Shown here: piece after piece, positions 4,705-57,975 of the stretch
Position numbering within the stretch: the stretch's first letter is position 1
Layout: every line of letters starts with the position of its first letter
Assembly (NCBI GenBank): GCA_025449835.1
Contig: JANWIO010000059.1
Location: forward strand, 1-57,975
DNA length: 57,975 bases
Source of the DNA: Vampirovibrionales bacterium
Lineage (GTDB): Bacteria; Cyanobacteriota; Vampirovibrionia; Vampirovibrionales; JAGQHJ01
Reading direction: 5' to 3'
Made by a program: the position numbers and the translations under genes
Notes under the pieces: generated by a model
What the model was told of the DNA's origin: nothing
Databases searched by the model: none
Seen by the model: only the letters and a program-made list of their open reading frames with translations

Positions 4705-5591
4705 TGGTTAAAACACTGATGCGAACTTCTATTACCCTTACCCTGGTCTCTGATGAAAAGGCCACCTTTCTAGAGGAGATGCTCTGGACCCTGGATGGGG
4801 TTGAAAGTGTTACCTATCGATTAGATGGCGAAGAGTATTTTCAGGGTCTCCAAGTGATTGGAAACGCTCCAAATCTCTTGTCGCAGATTCAACAGCTTTG
4901 TGAAGAATATGGCTTGCAGCAAGCCGTGAGTATCCAGCCCCCTGTTGAGATCTCTGAAGCGGATTGGGCGGAGTGTTGGAAGCAATATTGGCATGTCAAT
5001 CGAATATTGCCGCATTTGGTGATTCAGCCGAGTTGGGAGCCCTTTACACCATTACCGAAGGATATTGTTTTAAAACTGGATCCGGGTTCAGCCTTTGGGA
5101 CAGGGACTCATGACACAACCCAATTGATGTTGTTTGTGTTAAACGAAATCATGCATTCTGCTGGGTCAAAACCTCAAAATCTTTTGGATGTGGGGACAGG
5201 GTCGGGAATTTTAGCTATCTATGGGGCTAAGCTGGGTATTTCAGATTGTGTGGCCATTGACAATGATTCCCATGCTGTGGATGTTGCTTGCGAAAATATT
5301 GCGTTAAATGGTGTCGCAGAACAAATTACCGGATCAACGCAAACGGTGGGTGAGATGGCGGGACAAAAACAATTTGACTTGGTGCTGGCCAATATTTTGA
5401 CACCCATTCTAAAAGACTTAATGCCGGATTTCGAGAAGGTTTTGTCACCACAAGGGATTTTGGTGATGAGTGGGATTACCCGTCGCCAATCCCCACAAAT
5501 TTTAGAAAGCATGCAAATCTATCATTTAGATTTAGTAAGGTTTATTCAGAAAGGGGATTGGGTTGCCCTTGTCTGTAAAAAGAAATCCTAA
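4704..5591 (+). CDS. prmA: Ribosomal protein L11 methyltransferase PrmA
   Basis: PrmA trimethylates lysines and the N-terminus of ribosomal protein L11 using S-adenosylmethionine. The 295-residue protein has the PrmA N-terminal domain, DPGSAFGTGTHDTT ahead of the SAM site, the class I motif LDVGTGSGILAIYGAKLG, and the active-site LVLANILTPIL (the Asn-Ile-Leu variant typical of the family). The ATG overlaps the comB stop by one base and the 3' end overlaps the start of rsmE by about 29 bases, so the run comB to cca is likely one operon of translation and RNA-modification genes. Confidence 0.93.
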   Translation: MVKTLMRTSITLTLVSDEKATFLEEMLWTLDGVESVTYRLDGEEYFQGLQVIGNAPNLLSQIQQLCEEYGLQQAVSIQPPVEISEADWAECWKQYWHVNRILPHLVIQPSWEPFTPLPKDIVLKLDPGSAFGTGTHDTTQLMLFVLNEIMHSAGSKPQNLLDVGTGSGILAIYGAKLGISDCVAIDNDSHAVDVACENIALNGVAEQITGSTQTVGEMAGQKQFDLVLANILTPILKDLMPDFEKVLSPQGILVMSGITRRQSPQILESMQIYHLDLVRFIQKGDWVALVCKKKS

Positions 5592-8077: not shown

Positions 8078-8491
8078 ACTGCAATCTCCCCTTGTTAATC
8101 GTTCTTCAATGTAAATCAGGAATAAAACGTCTCATGCTCCGCTTTCGAGCAGGCGTTGAGGTGTATTTTTGGGTTTAAAAAATTTTTTGCGACAAGCGAT
8201 AGAGACCTCCCCACCCATATAAAAACAATCTGAATTCTGTTTGTTGATAGTTTATGAAGGGGATGTTACATCGAGAAAACAGGATTTCCGTTGGAAGATC
8301 GTCATGCCTGTTTTATAAAGCTTTTTTCGTATTGAAAGTGGCTTTTTGCTTGATCTTAGGAGTTTTTTTGTCCTAACATAATGGGGATATGTTGAGACAA
8401 TGCCTTCACATTTCATTTTTTTTGAGAAATACTAATACGTTATCAATCGTTTCGTTAGAAAGCCAACATAACAAAAGAAGGTAGGTTATAT
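8078..8491. promoter_or_regulatory. Divergent intergenic region upstream of korAB
   Basis: A 414-base gap between the minus-strand small gene and korA. It should hold promoters in both directions. A 6-bp inverted repeat (TTAGGA at 8356-8361 and TCCTAA at 8371-8376, around a T-rich loop) could be an operator or small hairpin. A Shine-Dalgarno run (AAGAAGGTAGG) precedes the korA ATG. I see no convincing -35/-10 pair, RNA gene or coding frame. Confidence 0.35.
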
Positions 8492-10324
8492 ATGGAAATC
8501 ACCAACCAGTTTTCGTGGATGATTGGCGGCCCGCAAGGAACAGGGGTGGATTCATCTGCCACCTTGTTTATTCGTTCTTGTGCAGTTGCTGGTTTAAACG
8601 TCTACGGAAAAAGAGAATACCACTCCAATATTATGGGAGAGCATAGCTACTTCCAGGTGCGTGTCAGTGAAAATCCTGTTCATTCCCATGTTGATCCGGT
8701 CCATTTACTTGCTACGTTTGATGATGAAACCGCCCGGATTCATGCCCATGAAGTGGTTCCCAATGGCTACTTTTTATATGACGCCAATGTGACCAAACCA
8801 GAAACTCTGGACTTACATCCAGATGTTAAAATCTTGGCCTTGCCTTATTCCCAAATTTTAGAAGAAGTTTCTGCTGAAACAGGCCAACCTTTAGCCAAGC
8901 TGCAAATTATGAAAAATACCATTGCTGTTGCAGCGTCTTTGGCAATGACATGCTTTGAAATTCAGTATATTGAAAAAGCCTTAAAAGGTATTTTTACGGG
9001 TGGCAAGGCAAAATTGGTGCCTTTAAACTTAAAAGTGGCCGAAAAAGCCTATGCTTGCATCACACAAGAAATTAAAAATGCATTTCCATATCGCTTGGTC
9101 GCCAAGCCCGATGCACCAGCTCAAATGATTGTCAATGGAACCACGGCTGTGGCACTCGGAAAATTAAAAGCAGGCTGCCGTTTTCAGTCGTATTACCCCA
9201 TTACCCCTGCCAGTGATGAAAGTGTCTATTTGGAATCTCACCCTGAGTATGGTGTAAACGTGGTTCAGTGCGAAGACGAAATCTCAGCTGTTTGTATGGC
9301 GGTCGGTGCCTCTTTAACAGGGGTTCGTGCTTCAACCTCTTCTTCCGGTCCTGGATTTGGTCTTAAAGCTGAAGGCCTTGGCTGGGCTGGTATTAATGAA
9401 GTGCCTGTTGTGGTTTTCAACTATCAACGGGGTGGCCCGTCTACCGGTTTGCCAACGCGGCATGAACAAGGTGACTTATTATTCAGCTTGTTTATCTGCC
9501 ACGGGGAGTATCCCAAAATCGTTGTGGCCCCTGGCGATATGACAGAGTGTTTCAACGATTCGTTTAATGCTTTTAACTATGCCGATCAATTCCAAACGCC
9601 GGTTATTGTTCTGTGTGATAAAGCATTGGCCAACAACACCGCATCCATTTTGCCTTTTGATGAAACCAATTTAAGAATTAACCGCGGAAAAAGGGCATCA
9701 GACGAATATCTGGCAGAATTGGCAAGTCGTCCTGATTTTAATGGCAAATATCCTCGGTTTGCAAATTCTGAAGATGGTGTTTCAACAAGATCATTGCCTG
9801 GTCAAGAAAATGGAATTTACTGGTGTACTGGTGATGAGCACGATGTCTATGGCCATATTTCAGAAGATCCTGAAAACCGGATTATGATGGATGACAAACG
9901 GATGCGTAAATTGGAACTTGCGGCTAAAACCATTCCACAAGATGAGCAATGGAAGCTGTATGGTCCAGAAAATGCAGACTATACCGTTGTAACCTGGGGA
10001 TCCACTAAAGGTCCGTTACTGGATGCACTGCCGATTCTTCAAAGCGATGGCATTTCCATCAACGTTCTTCAGATTCGGTTAATGAGTCCCTTCCCTGCTG
10101 AAGCGGTTTCTCAGATCTTGAATCGCGCCAAGGTTCGTATCGGTGTTGAACAAAACTTTACCGGTCAATTGGCGAAGATTGTTCGTATGGAAACAGGCAT
10201 TAAAATGGATCATATGGTTTCTAAGTACACCGGTCGTCCGATGTCGGAAACCGAGGTCGTTGCCGCTCTTAGAGAGATTACCAAGCAGAAAACAGAGAAA
10301 GTGGTGTTAACTTATGGTCACTAA
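8492..10324 (+). CDS. korA: 2-oxoacid:ferredoxin oxidoreductase, fused gamma-alpha subunit
   Basis: The large subunit of a two-subunit 2-oxoacid:ferredoxin oxidoreductase, most likely 2-oxoglutarate:ferredoxin oxidoreductase (oxidative decarboxylation to acyl-CoA with reduction of ferredoxin, or the reverse). Seen: an N-terminal gamma domain (about residues 1-190) starting with GGPQGTGVDSS and KREYHSNIMGEHSY, then the alpha domain (YYPITPASDESVY, SSSGPGFGLKAEG, RGGPSTGLPTRHEQGDL) and the C-terminal transketolase-like domain. Its length of 610 residues fits KorA. The 3' end overlaps korB by 11 bases. This is a ferredoxin-based, oxygen-sensitive type of enzyme, consistent with anaerobic or microaerobic metabolism. 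Confidence 0.9.
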   Translation: MEITNQFSWMIGGPQGTGVDSSATLFIRSCAVAGLNVYGKREYHSNIMGEHSYFQVRVSENPVHSHVDPVHLLATFDDETARIHAHEVVPNGYFLYDANVTKPETLDLHPDVKILALPYSQILEEVSAETGQPLAKLQIMKNTIAVAASLAMTCFEIQYIEKALKGIFTGGKAKLVPLNLKVAEKAYACITQEIKNAFPYRLVAKPDAPAQMIVNGTTAVALGKLKAGCRFQSYYPITPASDESVYLESHPEYGVNVVQCEDEISAVCMAVGASLTGVRASTSSSGPGFGLKAEGLGWAGINEVPVVVFNYQRGGPSTGLPTRHEQGDLLFSLFICHGEYPKIVVAPGDMTECFNDSFNAFNYADQFQTPVIVLCDKALANNTASILPFDETNLRINRGKRASDEYLAELASRPDFNGKYPRFANSEDGVSTRSLPGQENGIYWCTGDEHDVYGHISEDPENRIMMDDKRMRKLELAAKTIPQDEQWKLYGPENADYTVVTWGSTKGPLLDALPILQSDGISINVLQIRLMSPFPAEAVSQILNRAKVRIGVEQNFTGQLAKIVRMETGIKMDHMVSKYTGRPMSETEVVAALREITKQKTEKVVLTYGH

Positions 10325-42070: not shown

Positions 42071-42089
42071 GGGATACGTACCAACTTAT

Positions 42090-42166
42090 GGGGCGGTAGC
42101 TCAGTTGGTTAGAGTACCTGCCTGTCACGCAGGATGTCGCGGGTTCGAGCCCCGTCCGCCCCGCCA
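42090..42166 (+). tRNA. tRNA-Asp (anticodon GTC)
   Basis: Acceptor GGGGCGG pairs with CCGCCCC, D-arm TAGCTCAGTTGGTTAGAGTA, anticodon stem CCTG...CAGG with loop containing GTC, T-arm CGGGTTCGAGCCCCG, discriminator G and encoded CCA; 77 bases, all arms intact. Its 3' half also encodes the last 13 codons and the stop of the opposing recombinase, marking the island boundary. Confidence 0.96.
42125..42166. other. Putative attachment site within tRNA-Asp
   Basis: The 42 bases shared by the tRNA 3' half and the recombinase 3' end are where chromosome and element meet. A tRNA 3' end is the usual target of integrating elements. A second copy of this stretch, expected at the other end, is not in the window. 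Confidence 0.5.
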
Positions 42167-43600
42167 TTTTTCAAAATCCCTGAATTTATAAAAATATTCA
42201 AACGCTGGATTCCATACAGGACTTAAGTTTTCACCCTCCAATAAATAGTTCGATGAGATAAATCTCAGAAGTCTTCGCCGATTGGTAAAATTTTGATGTT
42301 CATAAAGCACCAGTGCTTTTTCGGCGAGTTCTATGAGTTGGATACCCATTTCGATATAAGAAACGCTACCCCTTTTATGCTCTTCTAAGGTTTTGAGGAG
42401 TTTTTGTTGTTCCTCAACATATTGTTGATGTTTTCTCCTCCAGAGTTCTTCAGGGATGATTCCCTCAAGCTTATCTTCGTATATCTGATCAAGCTTGGTC
42501 TGCACTTTAGATAGTTGGGCTTGGACGTGAGAAGTAGACTCTTTATGAAACACCTTTTCCTCAGCATGGTGTTCTTTTAAGGCTTTAATCACTATTTCAC
42601 TGTCGGGTTTCCCTATCTGAATCCCTTTTAAAAGTGCCAAAAATTGTTGTTCTAGCTTCTCTTCACGTACATGCTTTGCTCTTTGTGAACATTCCTTGTT
42701 CGAACAGTGATAGTAGATATAGCGGTTTTTCTTGAGCTCTGCGGTAATTGCACGTCCGCAGACAGCACAAGAAATTAAACCCGTATATTGGAATTCTCGT
42801 TTTGTGGTTTGCCCTTTATAGCGATTTTGAAGAATACTTTGAACCTTTTCAAAGTGTTCAACTGTAACAATCGGCTGATGTTTGCCTTTGTAATACTTCC
42901 CGGCCCAGTAAAAATCACCGATATAAATAGGATTTTTAAGCATTCTTTCGAGTGAAGTGGCTGGAATTCTCAATAAAGAAGAAGAATAGCGAAACCCTTC
43001 TTGAAAAAGTTTATTTCTCAAGGTAACTAAGGAAAACTCTTGTGATGCATAAAGTTCAAATGCTCGTTTTACCAGAGTAGAGGTCTCTGGATGAACCTCA
43101 ATCAGATGTGTTTCAAGGTTATTTTTATACCCATAAGGGGCAACTGAAGGAAAATGACCTTGTTCGGCTTTTTCTTTTTGTCCTTTTTTTACTTCCTCAG
43201 AAAGATTGTCAATATAATTTTTTGCCATGAGAACTTTAATGCCATGGATAAATTTTTCATGGGATTTTGCATCTTTGCTAAGGATTTCCCCTTCTTTGAC
43301 GAGATGGATTTCAACATCCAACTCCTCTAATCGAACATAGTCTTTGAAGTTTCGATACAAGCGATCAGTTTTTTCAACCAAAATACAATGGGGCTCTTTC
43401 GTGGATTTTAAGAAATCAAGCATTTTGTTAAACTGCTCTCTTCCAGAAGATTTGGCAGTTTCAGCCTCAGTGAAGGTGGTTGAGACGGTTAAGCCATTTT
43501 TGTCAGCATATTCTTGAAGTAATTTTAATTGCGCTGGGATGGAAAAGCCCTCTTTTTCTTGCTCACGGCTAGATACACGTGCGTAAATAACAGCTTTCAT
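42125..43600 (-). CDS. Large serine recombinase (site-specific integrase)
   Basis: A 491-residue large serine recombinase. Seen: the catalytic N-terminal domain (IYARVSSREQEKEGFSIPAQ, nucleophile Ser at about residue 10-11), a Recombinase domain (PSVAPYGYKNN, IYIGDFYWAGKYYKGKHQPI), a zinc ribbon (CAVCGRAI...YHCSNKEC), then a coiled coil (about 350-420). It would integrate and excise the island. The last 13 residues (GGRGSNPRHPA being the tail) are read from the tRNA-Asp gene, so recombination changes or restores the C-terminus. Most tRNA-targeting integrases are tyrosine type; a serine enzyme here is less usual. Its start is 5 bases downstream of the HTH gene. Confidence 0.9.
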   Translation of the reverse strand: MKAVIYARVSSREQEKEGFSIPAQLKLLQEYADKNGLTVSTTFTEAETAKSSGREQFNKMLDFLKSTKEPHCILVEKTDRLYRNFKDYVRLEELDVEIHLVKEGEILSKDAKSHEKFIHGIKVLMAKNYIDNLSEEVKKGQKEKAEQGHFPSVAPYGYKNNLETHLIEVHPETSTLVKRAFELYASQEFSLVTLRNKLFQEGFRYSSSLLRIPATSLERMLKNPIYIGDFYWAGKYYKGKHQPIVTVEHFEKVQSILQNRYKGQTTKREFQYTGLISCAVCGRAITAELKKNRYIYYHCSNKECSQRAKHVREEKLEQQFLALLKGIQIGKPDSEIVIKALKEHHAEEKVFHKESTSHVQAQLSKVQTKLDQIYEDKLEGIIPEELWRRKHQQYVEEQQKLLKTLEEHKRGSVSYIEMGIQLIELAEKALVLYEHQNFTNRRRLLRFISSNYLLEGENLSPVWNPAFEYFYKFRDFEKWRGGRGSNPRHPA

Positions 43601-51891: not shown

Positions 51892-54800
51892 ATGAAAATG
51901 GTCAAGGAAACTAAAGTTTCTTCAAGAAGAAAAAGTATTAATAAAACGCTTTATGAGACACATAAGCAACAATCTCTAAATACCAACCTGAAAGGGCAAC
52001 CTGTTAAGAGTAGTCGAACCGTCGTAGTTCGGGTTGCTGATCCAACCAATCCCAGGTTTGTAGATGTAAATCAAAAATTTTCATTTCCAGCCCGAGAACA
52101 GGATATTGCTCTTCTAAAGGATTTATTGAGTGATTTCGGATTGGCACGCCACTCCGTGATGGAAGACATTTGGCAAGACTTTCAACAAAATGAAGCCTTC
52201 TATATCCAGGAAGCACAGGAAGTTGAGTATGCTGAAAAGCATGGAACGAATATAAGCCGTTTTACCACTGAAGAAGGTGAGGTAATTTCTACTCCCTTTA
52301 GTTGCCAAGAATGTCAAAAACCTCTTTATGTTCATTATTATGACCCAATTCAGGATAAGAGTAAAAAGCCAAAACGCTATTATTTTGCAAGATGCATCGA
52401 AGAAACCCACAAACGTGGTATTAAACTATCTGACAAAAAGGATGTTAACGATTCTTCTAAAACTATGTTTGATATTAAAAAGTTTAAAGCCCAGCCATTA
52501 TCAAACCATTTCTCTGCTAAATACATTACTGGTAGTAAAACGAAAAATAGTTATGAAAATTGCTTAAAACCCTTTGAATTACCAAAAATAAAAAGACAAT
52601 GGGAACGTTCTGTTGGCGATTCACTTCGGCAAATTGCAGCTAGGGATTTAGCGGGGTTCCTGGACAAATATTATTCCGTCAAGGAGTCTATTCAAAAAAC
52701 GATTGAACATAATAATAAGCAGATTGATTCCAACAGCCTGAAATATGGGTTATCCAAATACCAAGTTTCACCCTTGAACCTCTCCTTGCTTTCATCTATT
52801 AATGGACGAGATGATATTGACGCTTATAATCGACTTGTCTCTACTTATAATACCTGGCTGAATGAAACCTGTTGGCAACACCCAGAGTATGGAAAAGAAC
52901 TTAAGGAAGCATTGCCTAAGTTAAAGCGTTTAAAAGGCTACCCCTCTTTTCCCATCATTGAAAAAGAGCAAAGTCGTTTTCAATATACGGAAGAAGAACT
53001 TGGACTAAAGTTTGAACAATTGATTGCTGACCTTGAAGCTAACTGGCATGTTCATCTTGAACAGTTGACCGATGGTATGTTTCATAATTTTTTAAAACGT
53101 CACAGTCCTCGGGTTATTTGGAAAAAACTACCAGAATATATTGATGATATATCCCCTCCTAAACGCCTCTATTTGAAAAGAAAAGATGAAAAGCAAAAAT
53201 CCCAAAAACAACCTCTGCAATTCAAAGCGACCGAACGCATTGGAAATTGGCTATTTTATGAGTATAAGCAAAAGAACCAGCCCTTGAAAACAGCGTTGAT
53301 AAATACACTGAAGCGTATTGACCAAAAGATTGGTGTACTGAAATTTCATTATCAGAAACAAAAACAGAATGATAAGGAAAATAGGGATATTCAGTCGTAT
53401 CAGCAACTTATCAAATGGTATCAAGCCAAGACAACCCTTCTTCTCGAAGCCCTCCATCCATCCTTGGATACGACAAGTGAGGAACAGAAAACGCTTTATT
53501 GGGAGGTTATCTCTCAAGCCAAAGATTTGTACGGATTGCTCAGAGGAGACCCTTTCAAAAAGAAATTAGAACGAAAAACATTTGAGGTTGTTGGGTTCTC
53601 ATCCTCTGGGAAAACGGGAAAAACTTCTCTTCAGTACGATGCAATCCTTTCAATTTATATCTCTGAAAAGAATGTACCGGAATATTACTTGCTGCTCCAA
53701 CCCCTGAAAAAAGAGAAAAAATGTAAATTTCTTTTAAATGTTGATGAACGGGTTAATCTGACCAGCCTATCCCCCGGCTGGTATGGTTTTTGGAAGGATG
53801 GAGGTAATGACACAACAGTTTTATCGCCCATGGAAGTGAATTTTACTGAAGAAGCTATTATCAGGCTTCCGTTAATCTTTGGTGAACGTCAAGGACAACG
53901 GTATTTGTGGAACAGAATATTCCCTTTAGCATCCTCAACAGAGATGGGCAAATTTCGACTCATGAATGCTCGTGTCATTGAGCAAAGCCTTGCAACTGAC
54001 TTGAAAGATGAAAGGCTAAGAAATAAATATCGCAAGCAAGAAGGACTTTATATTGCCATTGCTTTTGAGAAGGTGGCAGAACATGGGGTACTGGATGATA
54101 AAAGATGGCAATATCAAACAATTTTAGGAGTGGATCGGGGTGAGAAAATTCCTCTGGTTGCCAGATTACTTGATTTGGATGGTAATCCATTACTTGTAGA
54201 TGTTGAAAATGGACAAGATCCATCGATGGGGATACAAATTGGTGTGGATCATTATGCTATTCAGAAAAAATGGGCTGAGAAAATCAAACAGCAACAGAAA
54301 ATAGGTTCTGCTCAAGTCAATGTGGATAGTAACCGTGGGAAACATGTTGCTGATCAGATGATTAACAATGCTGTAGCCCAACTCTTGGATATTGCTAAGT
54401 CTCATAACGCCTTAATTGTATTTGAAGATTTGTCCAGAGGTTTTGGAAGGAGAGGCTCGAACACATATATGACACTCCAGCAGTATACCCGCTTGGAGGA
54501 TGCTTTAATCCGAAAGGCCCAGGAAGTCGGTTTATATCCAGCTAAAGGAGATCTTTTGACGAACTGTCGCAAGGGGATTTTAGCAAAAGTAATAGCTCAA
54601 CATACCTCTCAAACCTGTTCTGCTTGTGGCAGAATCAATAGCAAGGATGCTCTATCCAAAATCCTATTCTCAACCCTCCATAAAACGGACGGAAATTATG
54701 CTTTGAAACGTCCTGACGGTAGCTTGCTCTCTTTAAAAAAGACTGATTTAACCGAAGAAATAGATAAAATTCTAAAAAATGGACAATCCTTTCAGAATTT

Positions 54801-55224
54801 AACAAAGACAGCCCGTAAAAATTTGGTAAGCCTGCTAAACCAGGAATTACAATATAGACCGACCCAGGATCAGTTTCAATGTTTGTATTGTGACCATAAA
54901 GCACATGCGGATGCCCAAGCAGCCCTTAACATTGGACGAGCTTGGCTTTTTGTGCGGGAAGAGGAGGTCAAGGCTTTTCGAGATAGGAGTTCATTGCCTG
55001 GAGAAGCCAAGGGTAGCCAAGAACATCAGCAATACAAAAAGCAGCAAGAGAAGACTCAAAAAGCCAAAAACACTGGTAGGCATTCGAACGATATCGAGTA
55101 TTATCCAGAGAACGAATCGGAAGATATGCAAGGTGCAAAAGATATCAATCAAAAACAAGTTTCTTATGCAGACTTCTGGAGTCAGTTCTATCAAAAACGT
55201 CTGGAGCAAAAGCTATTTCAGTAG
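51892..55224 (+). CDS. cas12e: Cas12e (CasX)-type CRISPR effector nuclease, 1110 aa
   Basis: An RNA-guided DNA nuclease of type V-E. Matches to CasX that I recognise: an N-terminal FSCQECQKPLYV block (C138, C141, C168), RLKGYPSFPIIEK, PMEVNFTEEAIIRLPLIFG and RQGQRYLWN before the nuclease, then RuvC-I GVDRGEKIP (D748), RuvC-II IVFEDLSRGFGRRG (E845), and RuvC-III HADAQAALNIGRAWLF (D1007). The RuvC-I to -II spacing of 97 residues equals that of DpbCasX. Zinc pairs CSAC (909/912) and CLYC (997/1000) lie in the target-strand loading region. Compared with the roughly 980-residue characterised CasX, there is extra sequence at the N-terminus, in the middle, and about 50 Lys/Glu/Gln-rich residues before the terminal FWSQFYQKRLEQ. 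Start ATG 51892 follows GGTGA. Confidence 0.95.
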   Translation: MKMVKETKVSSRRKSINKTLYETHKQQSLNTNLKGQPVKSSRTVVVRVADPTNPRFVDVNQKFSFPAREQDIALLKDLLSDFGLARHSVMEDIWQDFQQNEAFYIQEAQEVEYAEKHGTNISRFTTEEGEVISTPFSCQECQKPLYVHYYDPIQDKSKKPKRYYFARCIEETHKRGIKLSDKKDVNDSSKTMFDIKKFKAQPLSNHFSAKYITGSKTKNSYENCLKPFELPKIKRQWERSVGDSLRQIAARDLAGFLDKYYSVKESIQKTIEHNNKQIDSNSLKYGLSKYQVSPLNLSLLSSINGRDDIDAYNRLVSTYNTWLNETCWQHPEYGKELKEALPKLKRLKGYPSFPIIEKEQSRFQYTEEELGLKFEQLIADLEANWHVHLEQLTDGMFHNFLKRHSPRVIWKKLPEYIDDISPPKRLYLKRKDEKQKSQKQPLQFKATERIGNWLFYEYKQKNQPLKTALINTLKRIDQKIGVLKFHYQKQKQNDKENRDIQSYQQLIKWYQAKTTLLLEALHPSLDTTSEEQKTLYWEVISQAKDLYGLLRGDPFKKKLERKTFEVVGFSSSGKTGKTSLQYDAILSIYISEKNVPEYYLLLQPLKKEKKCKFLLNVDERVNLTSLSPGWYGFWKDGGNDTTVLSPMEVNFTEEAIIRLPLIFGERQGQRYLWNRIFPLASSTEMGKFRLMNARVIEQSLATDLKDERLRNKYRKQEGLYIAIAFEKVAEHGVLDDKRWQYQTILGVDRGEKIPLVARLLDLDGNPLLVDVENGQDPSMGIQIGVDHYAIQKKWAEKIKQQQKIGSAQVNVDSNRGKHVADQMINNAVAQLLDIAKSHNALIVFEDLSRGFGRRGSNTYMTLQQYTRLEDALIRKAQEVGLYPAKGDLLTNCRKGILAKVIAQHTSQTCSACGRINSKDALSKILFSTLHKTDGNYALKRPDGSLLSLKKTDLTEEIDKILKNGQSFQNLTKTARKNLVSLLNQELQYRPTQDQFQCLYCDHKAHADAQAALNIGRAWLFVREEEVKAFRDRSSLPGEAKGSQEHQQYKKQQEKTQKAKNTGRHSNDIEYYPENESEDMQGAKDINQKQVSYADFWSQFYQKRLEQKLFQ

Positions 55225-55306: not shown

Positions 55307-55951
55307 ATGTTTGAAGAAGAAAACCCACTTCTACCTGTTTCCTGGGTTGCTGATTATGCATTTTGCCAATGGGCAGGATATGCTTTCTTTACAGGTTTGG
55401 AAAATTTTGAACAAAAGAATACGGTTTATCAGGATAGCATTGCAGGCCATTTGAGTGTTCATGAGCAACAAAGCCGTTACCGGGAAAAAGGAATTGTTCA
55501 GAAAACGGATGTTTCACTCTCCCATGACATGCTCTACCTAACCGGTAAGGCGGATATGGTTGAGCTTTGGCCTGAAGGGAAAATTGTTCCCATAGAATAC
55601 AAACGTTCCGTTCCTGCCGAAGGGCCACACTTCCATCATCAGGTTCAGCTTTGTCTCCAAGCGCTTTGTCTGGAAAAACAGTATCAAAAGGATATTCCAG
55701 AAGGAGTTATATACAGCATTACCAGCCATCAAAGGGTGCCTGTTCCCTTGACTCCACTATTACGGGAACAAACTCTCAACCTGCTCTCTGAACTCAAAAA
55801 CAAGCTGAAATCTGGAAATCCAAATATGTTCCAAAAACGAAATGATCTGCTCTGCCGACAGTGTACGTTTTTCGAAATCTGCCTTCCACCTGTTTTCTTT
55901 GATGAGTTGAGAAAGACTTCTTCAGATTTTGCAGACCAGGAGGAATTTTAA
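55307..55951 (+). CDS. cas4: Cas4 CRISPR adaptation exonuclease
   Basis: Cas4 processes prespacers and helps select PAM-compatible ones with Cas1-Cas2. Seen: WVADYAFCQWAGYAFF with the first cluster cysteine, the nuclease core GKADMVELW and PIEYKRS (Asp...Glu-x-Lys), QVQLCLQALCLEKQY, and a C-terminal cysteine group CRQCTFFEICLP; four cysteines suggest an iron-sulfur cluster. The 214-residue length is normal. It lies 82 bases after cas12e, and its TAA abuts the ATG of cas1, so cas4-cas1-cas2 is translated as one unit. Confidence 0.92.
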   Translation: MFEEENPLLPVSWVADYAFCQWAGYAFFTGLENFEQKNTVYQDSIAGHLSVHEQQSRYREKGIVQKTDVSLSHDMLYLTGKADMVELWPEGKIVPIEYKRSVPAEGPHFHHQVQLCLQALCLEKQYQKDIPEGVIYSITSHQRVPVPLTPLLREQTLNLLSELKNKLKSGNPNMFQKRNDLLCRQCTFFEICLPPVFFDELRKTSSDFADQEEF

Positions 55952-56944
55952 ATGCGATATGATGGTTTGGAGCGTGTCCCCTTATATCTTTACGCAAAAG
56001 AGGATTACTCTTTAAAAAAATATGGCGACTTATTTCGCTTGTTCCGGGGAGAGGAACAAATTCAGAAAATTCCTGCCATTAAAGTAAATGAGATTCTGGT
56101 TTTCGGTGGGCTCACATTAACTTCTCCCGTAATCCAACTTTGTCAAAAGCACAAAATTAATATTCATTTTTTATCCGGTTCTGGCCAGTATCATGGTTCG
56201 CTCATTTTTGATCCAGCTAAGAACCTCTTTATCCGAAAAGCACAAGCTGAAATCCACCTGGATGACAAACGGCGTCTGGAGTTTGCCAAAGAGTTTGTGC
56301 TAGGAAAAATAACAAACCAAAAATGGGTTTTAGACAGTTTTAGAAAAAAACACCGATTTAACCCAAATATTGATTGGAATAAAATTGAATCTCTTGATTC
56401 ACTTCGTGGGGTGGAAGGGACGTATAGTCGCTTGTATTTTCAAGAACTAGCCAAGCAACTTAAAAACACTGATTTTTCCTTCAACGGACGCTCGAAACGC
56501 CCCCCAGCTGATCCGGTCAATGCGCTTTTGAGTCTTGGGTATACTTTCCTATTCAGTCGCCTTTTCTCATATACAACATTGATCGGTCTTGATCCCTATT
56601 TAGGTTTTTTTCATGAAAACTATTACGGCCGTCCTTCATTAGTTTGTGACTTGATGGAGCCATGGAGACCCCTCTTGGTCGATAAATTCATCCTAACGAT
56701 ATTGAATAGGAATGAATTGTCATTGGAAGACTTTGAACGGGTAGACGACAGCATAAAACTGAATAGTGAAGGTTTCAAGAAATTTATTCAGAAGTGGTAT
56801 ACAAACTTTGAGGTAGACAACCATACTTCAGGACGGTTTGAAACAGAACTGACATACCAAAAAGCGCTAGAGCTTGATACAAGGTTATTTGGGAAATCAT
56901 TGACACAAGAGATTGAAGCATATAAGGCTTATACCAGACCATGA
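55952..56944 (+). CDS. cas1: Cas1 CRISPR integrase
   Basis: The spacer-integrating subunit of the adaptation complex, 330 residues. Seen: a beta-rich N-terminal domain (IPAIKVNEILVFGGLTLTS), then the catalytic Glu in RGVEGTYSRLYF, His in LGFFHENYYGRPSL and the acidic VCDLMEPWRPLLVD. This set of metal ligands is complete, so it should be active. ATG immediately follows the cas4 stop (TAAATG), with AGGAGGAA upstream as ribosome site. The last 4 bases overlap cas2. Confidence 0.96.
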   Translation: MRYDGLERVPLYLYAKEDYSLKKYGDLFRLFRGEEQIQKIPAIKVNEILVFGGLTLTSPVIQLCQKHKINIHFLSGSGQYHGSLIFDPAKNLFIRKAQAEIHLDDKRRLEFAKEFVLGKITNQKWVLDSFRKKHRFNPNIDWNKIESLDSLRGVEGTYSRLYFQELAKQLKNTDFSFNGRSKRPPADPVNALLSLGYTFLFSRLFSYTTLIGLDPYLGFFHENYYGRPSLVCDLMEPWRPLLVDKFILTILNRNELSLEDFERVDDSIKLNSEGFKKFIQKWYTNFEVDNHTSGRFETELTYQKALELDTRLFGKSLTQEIEAYKAYTRP

Positions 56945-57216
56945 GGTACTTGATTTGTTATGATATTGAGGATGACAAACATCGTAATCGCCTTGTCAAA
57001 GTGCTTGAACAATATGGTGAAAGGGTCCAATATTCAGTTTTTGAAGTACAATTGCCGCCTAGCCTCCTGAAAACATTACGAAAGCGTCTGGTAGCGCAGA
57101 AAATAATAGGTAAACGGGATAGCCTGTTAATCTATCCTCTATGCGAAAGTTGCTACCCTAAAGTTGAACGAACCGGCAAGAACCCTTTGATCAATTCAAG
57201 CGGCATTGTGTTTTAA
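56941..57216 (+). CDS. cas2: Cas2 CRISPR adaptation protein
   Basis: The structural partner of Cas1, 91 residues. Seen: the ferredoxin-like start RYLICYDIEDDKHRNRLVK with the conserved Asp, YGERVQYSVFEV, and DSLLIYPLC. ATG overlaps the cas1 stop (ATGA). It ends the protein-coding part of the locus; the tracrRNA promoter begins within its last codons and the array follows. Confidence 0.95.
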   Translation: MRYLICYDIEDDKHRNRLVKVLEQYGERVQYSVFEVQLPPSLLKTLRKRLVAQKIIGKRDSLLIYPLCESCYPKVERTGKNPLINSSGIVF

Positions 57217-57234
57217 TGGCTAAACTGTTATAGT
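57206..57234 (+). promoter_or_regulatory. Promoter for the tracrRNA
   Basis: TTGTGT (57206-57211) and TATAGT (57229-57234) with a 17-base spacer. The predicted start near 57241 falls exactly where a tracrRNA upstream of the scaffold would begin. Confidence 0.55.
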
Positions 57235-57240
57235 TCCTTC

Positions 57241-57334
57241 TGGAGCCACAAGCTCTGGGCCATTTATTGGAAACTCTTCCTTTGAGTCCCGAACCCAGCA
57301 CGTAACGTGTATGGACAAAGTTGCTTCCTTACCA
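57241..57334 (+). ncRNA. CasX-type tracrRNA
   Basis: The segment reproduces the known CasX tracrRNA layout. CCTTTGAG at 57279-57286 corresponds to the ACTTTGAG element that pairs with the CAAAG at the repeat 3' end. The scaffold stem at 57295-57314 has the flanks CCAG...TATGG of PlmCasX with a different but still paired stem (CACG-TAA-CGTG). ACAAAG follows, then GCTTCCTTACC (57323-57333), which pairs with GGTAAGGAGC of the repeat except for one bulged T. A 5' hairpin GAGC-CACAA-GCTC is at 57243-57255. The 3' end is uncertain. Confidence 0.82.
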
Positions 57335-57347
57335 AATCTTTTATATT

Positions 57348-57370
57348 ACACATCTAACTGTGTGTTTTGT
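57348..57370 (+). terminator. Possible tracrRNA terminator
   Basis: ACACA (57348-57352) and TGTGT (57359-57363) with a 6-base loop, then GTTTTGT. A weak stem, but correctly placed just after the antirepeat. Confidence 0.35.
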
Positions 57371-57397
57371 ACTTTGAGAAAAGAATAAGGCGAAAGC

Positions 57398-57415
57398 CCT
57401 TACCTTATAAGGGTT
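57398..57415 (+). repeat. Perfect 18-nt antirepeat in the CRISPR leader
   Basis: CCTTACCTTATAAGGGTT is the exact reverse complement of repeat positions 7-24. A CTTTGAG (57372-57378) lies just upstream, as in the tracrRNA, but without the CasX scaffold stem. It could pair with the first repeat in the pre-crRNA or form part of a second tracr-like RNA. Confidence 0.8.
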
Positions 57416-57459
57416 AAGAAGATTTTTGTAACTTGCAAGGGTTTGTTTTATGAAAATGC

Positions 57460-57483
57460 TTTGATTGATAAGGGTTTTCAGAT
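57460..57483 (+). repeat. Degenerate inverted repeat copy in the leader
   Basis: CTTTGATTG followed by ATAAGGGTTTTCAGA matches both ends of the reverse-complement repeat with the middle deleted and one extra T. It looks like a decayed repeat in inverted orientation. Confidence 0.6.
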
Positions 57484-57554: not shown

Positions 57555-57975
57555 GTCTGAAACCCTTATAAGGTAAGGAGCATCATCAAAGGTAATCCGT
57601 CGGTTAACAATTTCTAGGATTTCAGTCTGAAACCCTTATAAGGTAAGGAGCATCATCAAAGATACTACTACACGTCAAACAGCGCAAGAGTTTGGTCTGA
57701 AACCCTTATAAGGTAAGGAGCATCATCAAAGTAGAGTTCTGTTGAGGGGTCTCCCGGTGGGGTGACGTCTGAAACCCTTATAAGGTAAGGAGCATCATCA
57801 AAGTAAAGAGCTAGATATGATTGTAGATCTTTACGGCCTAGTCTGAAACCCTTATAAGGTAAGGAGCATCATCAAAGTTATCAACATAGCCACCTTCAAA
57901 ACAAAGACCCACCGTCTGAAACCCTTATAAGATAAGGAGCATCATCAAAGATCAGGATTGCTCTAACGCTCCCAC
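57555..57975 (+). CRISPR. Type V-E CRISPR array, six repeats visible, continues past the window
   Basis: Six 37-nt repeats start at 57555, 57625, 57695, 57767, 57841 and 57914. Each begins GTCTGAAACCCTTATAAGG and ends GCATCATCAAAG, the ending shared with known CasX repeats (CATCAAAG). Five complete spacers are 33, 33, 35, 37 and 36 nt; a sixth is cut at 25 nt by the window edge. Repeats 1-5 are identical, while the sixth has one G-to-A change in the GGTAAGG part, which may mark the trailer side. Leader and tracrRNA lie on the cas2 side, so new spacers should enter at 57591. Confidence 0.97.

Follow-up and report, generated by a model that had tools for sequence, protein, structure and literature searches.

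According to PMC11246509, the guide of Cas12e (CasX) combines a bulged stem with a triple helix of 3 bp. The locus described here was compared with two known systems and one further Cas12e locus. For PlmCasX (PlmCas12e, CasX2), the guide sequence was taken from PMC10251783. The DpbCasX locus (L006) lies in the Deltaproteobacteria MAG MGRL01000067 and encodes an effector of 986 aa, as in PDB 6NY1. Its genes cas12e, cas4, cas1, and cas2, the tracrRNA, and the CRISPR array follow each other on one strand, and the tracrRNA has a single long anti-repeat and a strong terminator at its end. The third locus (L007), from the Planctomycetota MAG JACQVU010000211, shows the same order, with a 37-nt repeat (GTCTGA...CATCAAAG) and a candidate tracrRNA between cas2 and the array. 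It differs in its effector of 1046 aa and in one 505-aa ORF (8239-9756) in the position of Cas4 and Cas1. This ORF, which comprises a Cas1 part at residues of about 180-500 and ~180 residues before it, is probably a Cas4-Cas1 fusion; the corresponding genes of our locus are separate.

CasX systems look very rare. A conserved-peptide scan of ~85,000 species genomes, based on a three-sequence RuvC alignment, detected two CasX loci, and the true number is higher because the scan, which relies on exact matches to its patterns, overlooks divergent members. Across sets of 386, 392, 382, and 395 genomes from relevant groups (~1,500 genomes, with some overlap), family searches yielded no new CasX above the cut-off, and close relatives of the system reported here, which would permit conservation testing, were found neither by the peptide scans nor by the family searches. 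Owing to this rarity, real information is gained from every deep branch whose guide RNA can be identified. The CasX tracrRNA as a kind of RNA is already known; what is new is a divergent member, accompanied by a second segment complementary to the repeat (AR2) as an unexplained feature.

A divergent Cas12e locus

The analyzed window of 57,975 nt is one entire contig (C59) of a 2.9-Mb genome that is 92% complete. The 3' part of its plus strand encodes Cas12e, Cas4, Cas1, and Cas2, followed by a gap of 338 nt and a CRISPR array. Cas4, Cas1, and Cas2 thus adjoin the effector and the array, as expected of type V-E:

51892-55224, plus strand: Cas12e/CasX effector, 1110 aa (NCBIfam NF045604; match to dPlmCasX in the PDB; RuvC triad)
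55307-55951, plus strand: Cas4 (TIGR00372, 85.9 bits, cutoff 65)
55952-56944, plus strand: Cas1 (TIGR00287, 256.9 bits, cutoff 71.7)
56941-57216, plus strand: Cas2 (TIGR01573, 68.6 bits, cutoff 24.5)
57555-57975, plus strand: CRISPR array with six copies of the 37-nt repeat GTCTGAAACCCTTATAAGGTAAGGAGCATCATCAAAG, reaching the contig end

The effector matched the curated CasX equivalog NF045604 over residues 53-1019 with 373.7 bits (cutoff 200) and the PADLOC Cas12e model with 357 bits. Its best solved relatives were PlmCasX (E = 5e-85) and DpbCasX (E = 5e-73), and its sequence identity to DpbCasX, which is 124 aa shorter, and to the Cas12e of L007 was 29-30%. In an alignment with the latter two proteins, the RuvC triad (D748, E845, D1007) and the paired cysteines of the C-terminal zinc/TSL region (C909/C912 and C997/C1000) were invariant. 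With regard to a possible NTSB-type insertion, the N-terminal part aligned by sequence to that of PlmCasX, including the Cys motif. An AlphaFold model calculated from the three-sequence alignment reached a pLDDT of only 40. In the part encoded by window 54994-55224, an insertion of several dozen residues, enriched in Lys, Gln, and Glu, precedes the C-terminal helix; in the alignment it is absent from DpbCasX and the L007 protein.

The 3' end of the CRISPR repeat, ATCAAAG, is consistent with CasX, and the repeat terminus CATCAAAG is common to all loci compared and to a primer in PMC10251783. Because the identical 37-nt repeat resumes at the extreme end of another contig of this genome (C94), with five further repeats, the two contigs probably carry a single array that was broken by the assembly. 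None of the nine complete spacers matched the phage and plasmid collections searched, so that no PAM, including TTCN, could be read from them. Directly past the array's distal end, contig C94 carries a gene for a Fic-domain protein with a winged helix (L022 8088-9287).

Identification of the probable tracrRNA

A sequence-only reading of the window had placed a tracrRNA with a CasX scaffold at 57241-57334. This segment lies in the gap between cas2 and the array. Our analysis bore out this assignment and resolved the following features:

57206-57234, plus strand: putative tracrRNA promoter, TTGTGT, 17 nt, extended -10 TGT-TATAGT (8/12 consensus)
57241-57333, plus strand: proposed tracrRNA body, starting at about 57241 (covariance match; alignment with Plm and Dpb)
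57263-57265, plus strand: first UUU tract, proposed to supply the third strand in a CasX triple helix (aligned with the Plm and Dpb UUU; role by analogy with CasX)
57280-57286, plus strand: CTTTGAG, proposed partner of the repeat 3' end ATCAAAG and second UUU strand (aligned with PlmCasX ACTTTGAG)
57295-57314, plus strand: scaffold stem of 8 bp with a bulged A and three compensatory pairs relative to Plm and Dpb (RNAfold, alignment)
57323-57333, plus strand: AR1, proximal anti-repeat GCTTCCTTACC, 10 bp and a 1-nt bulge with repeat positions 18-27 (pairing analysis)

A covariance model was trained on only two sequences, the tracrRNAs of PlmCasX (PMC10251783) and DpbCasX (from L006), with the scaffold stem as its sole structure. 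Its match to window positions 57251-57323 reached 24.5 bits (E = 3e-5 in a search space of 86 kb). Across the 2.9-Mb genome, this was the best and only significant match (E = 0.001), ahead of a runner-up with 13.8 bits; all E-values are rough. The search with known CasX tracrRNAs that had been suggested as a check of the prediction thus ranked the claimed element first in the genome. When the stem was omitted from the model, nothing was reported in the window at default settings, and forcing this model on the intergenic region gave 9.8 bits; the structure therefore supplies ~15 bits of the score. The L007 tracrRNA was too divergent to be detected by the two-sequence model, and no tracrRNA family of Rfam matched at our locus.

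The scaffold stem (CCAGC-ACG-TAA-CGT-GTATGG) was folded by RNAfold into ((((((((...))))).))), which is identical to the dot-bracket structure of the PlmCasX stem CCAGCGACTATGTCGTATGG. Five pairs, the bulged A, and the loop letters UA are the same as in PlmCasX; relative to both Plm and Dpb, CCAGC and UAUGG are kept, together with the G-U pair and the bulged A, so that a bulged-A stem lies between CCAGC and GUAUGG as expected of a CasX tracrRNA. The three inner pairs are altered on both sides and all remain Watson-Crick pairs (GC>AU, AU>CG, and CG>GC); since the Plm and Dpb stem sequences are identical, these compensatory changes lie along one branch and do not represent independent recurrences. 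In the aligned stems of the window, Plm, and Dpb, 24 of 24 cells were paired, compared to 17-38% in control slides of 1-3 columns. The proposal that CCAG and TATGG match PlmCasX while the differing stem between them still pairs, and hence covaries, agrees with these three pairs and with the contribution of structure to the model score. Such natural compensatory changes are evidence that the scaffold stem of CasX is an RNA structure under constraint. A chance resemblance in this AT-rich intergenic region would be in line with the RNAfold energy over all 94 nt, which is unexceptional (z = -1.1), but the genome-wide match coincides with the position that had been predicted. The covariance matches and compensatory pairs refute this explanation, to which we assign a negligible probability, unless the E-values are off by orders of magnitude.

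Beyond the stem, the element shares with the PlmCasX tracrRNA a CUGG 5' stem, a UUU tract, CUUUGAG, AAAG, and an anti-repeat starting with GCUU, and the repeat terminus CAUCAAAG is likewise shared. The CTTTGAG expected upstream of the stem is present in the CasX order, as is AAAG (57317-57320) between the stem and AR1, and the succession of AAAG, GC, and anti-repeat is the same in Plm and Dpb. Both U tracts and the repeat CAAAG, the proposed strands of a triple helix, are present and aligned with Plm and Dpb. Relative to Plm and Dpb, an insertion of 5-6 nt separates CUUUG from the first U tract, which counts against a reading of the element as a tracrRNA.

AR1 begins directly 3' of AAAG, and its complementarity to the repeat at this fixed place is significant (P = 0.004; 0.4% of random 16-mers from the window pair equally well). 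Its position matters because its score alone does not stand out within the intergenic region (24 versus a shuffle mean of 23). The single bulged base resembles the bulged stem of the Cas12e guide (PMC11246509). Compared with PlmCasX, the contiguous anti-repeat is much shorter, and its duplex energy of -17.4 kcal/mol, compared to -30.0 kcal/mol for the Dpb duplex and -28.8 kcal/mol for that of L007, again counts against a tracrRNA. The sequence-only reading was right about where the downstream anti-repeat lies; this anti-repeat is unusually short and weak, and the stronger AR2 at 57398-57415 had been missed. Another point against a tracrRNA, and a difference from DpbCasX, is that no strong terminator follows close behind AR1. 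A weak hairpin with a U-run near 57348-57368 may mark the 3' end region. As for the -35/-10 pair thought to indicate a start near 57241, the extended -10 (ending at 57234) stood, whereas the -35 (TTGTGT, 57206-57211) is poor, with 3/6 consensus positions, and a promoter scan with a threshold of 9/12 found none at this site. Judged from its sequence, the tracrRNA promoter is plausible at best.

Because of the covariance match, the compensatory pairs, the stem fold identical to PlmCasX, the DpbCasX-like gene order, the effector model, and the position of AR1, we regard it as very probable that the element encodes the tracrRNA of a divergent type V-E (Cas12e/CasX) system. It is homologous to CasX tracrRNAs in sequence and structure, its stem covaries, and it has the expected position and complementarity to the repeat. 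A putative dual RNA is now defined for a 1110-aa effector that is ~30% identical to DpbCasX. By analogy with CasX, we infer its transcription, triple helix, loading, and role in cleavage as follows. A short RNA would begin near 57241, in the interval that separates cas2 from the array, and would be transcribed in the same direction as the operon. The scaffold stem and the U-rich tracts would form a CasX-type core, in which the 5' U tract and CUUUGAG would sandwich the CAAAG at the 3' end of the crRNA repeat, giving a U-A-U triple helix like that of known CasX guides; AR1 would pair with repeat positions 18-27 beside it. Cas12e would load tracrRNA and crRNA as a dual guide, hold the tracrRNA through the scaffold stem, and be directed by the dual guide to RuvC cleavage of DNA.

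A second segment complementary to the repeat

Downstream of the tracrRNA body, two further features were detected:

57334-57397, plus strand: 64-nt stretch between AR1 and AR2, with CCTTACC at both flanks and a hairpin (ACACA-TCTAAC-TGTGT)
57398-57415, plus strand: AR2 CCTTACCTTATAAGGGTT, 18 nt perfectly complementary to repeat positions 7-24 (duplex -33.3 kcal/mol), outside the claimed 57241-57334

By our estimate, only ~1e-7 occurrences of such a complement are expected by chance in 338 nt. AR2 may extend the tracrRNA as part of a split anti-repeat or may belong to the leader of the array, and it could make the system a CasX variant. It bears on how much anti-repeat CasX needs and on whether a split one is tolerated.

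If AR2 belonged to the tracrRNA, this RNA would extend from about 57241 to 57415-57430, with AR1 pairing to repeat positions 18-27, the distal part of AR2 (57405-57415) to positions 7-17, and a structured insertion of 64-71 nt looped out between them. AR1 and the distal AR2 could in this way form one 21-bp duplex. The split pairing (-69.2 kcal/mol) costs only 2 kcal/mol relative to AR2 alone (-71.3 kcal/mol), and the net duplex energy reaches the level of Dpb and L007. When the insert and one CCTTACC copy were removed on paper, a contiguous anti-repeat of -37.5 kcal/mol resulted, as expected for an ancestral CasX anti-repeat. The CCTTACC duplication is, however, forced by the complementarity and hence is not independent evidence, a second anti-repeat was found in neither L006 nor L007, and upstream of AR2 stands a CTTTGA motif of the kind with which the leader parts of these two loci begin, so that AR2 may already be within the leader. 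On balance, a longer tracrRNA with a split anti-repeat appears unlikely. AR2 may in that case first capture the pre-crRNA and pass its proximal part to AR1 via branch migration; the full scheme, a CasX tracrRNA of ~175-190 nt whose short proximal half receives the crRNA by such a hand-over from a perfect distal half 64 nt away, is slightly more doubtful still.

An assignment of AR2 to the leader, as an inverted partial CRISPR repeat or a regulatory site outside the tracrRNA, seems somewhat better than an even bet. This interpretation is limited to AR2 and compatible with the tracrRNA at 57241-57333. AR2 could have arisen by aberrant integration of a spacer or repeat, or could act as a cis anti-repeat in the leader of the pre-crRNA. 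It is located 26 nt past the CTTTGA motif, which is common to the leader regions of all three loci, and AAGGGTT occurs three times within the same leader (57409, 57437, and 57470). The L006 and L007 leaders each contain a single AAGGGT as well (at 5508 and 10277, respectively), even though this motif is missing from the Dpb repeat, and AAGGGTT/AAGGGT is possibly a leader motif. Moreover, the region 57336-57420, considered as a tandem duplicate of the tracrRNA for its resemblance in a MAFFT alignment, was not significantly similar to the latter (local alignment against shuffles, P = 0.77) and scored about zero with the CasX model. Against a leader origin, the leader contained no further inverted copy of the repeat above background: AR3 (57447-57483), examined as a third anti-repeat, scored above local shuffles with 36, but unrelated tiles of the window reached 44.5. 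We also considered minus-strand AR2 as a self-regulating mini-CRISPR repeat and rejected it, as the following 9-12 nt had no convincing TTC-flanked target in the window.

The CTTTGAG at 57372, behind which the region's strongest anti-repeat lies, might alternatively mark the start of a separate RNA that is the true tracrRNA, with 57241-57334 as a relic. This is very improbable, as the segment from 57372 on has no scaffold stem and scored at most zero with the CasX model, and the upstream element shows covariation that a relic would lose.

Genomic context

A 199-bp stretch with a tRNA-Asp occurs at window positions 42084-42282 and, with 95% identity, at G000:C94:20469-20667 (L022 470-668, minus strand). 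Both copies have the same orientation relative to the array and are located on the two contigs that share the array ends, with a large serine recombinase gene (42125-43600) directly bordering the first of them. Provided that the contigs join through the array, the CasX system seems to reside within an integrative element of ~25 kb bounded by the tRNA-Asp copies.
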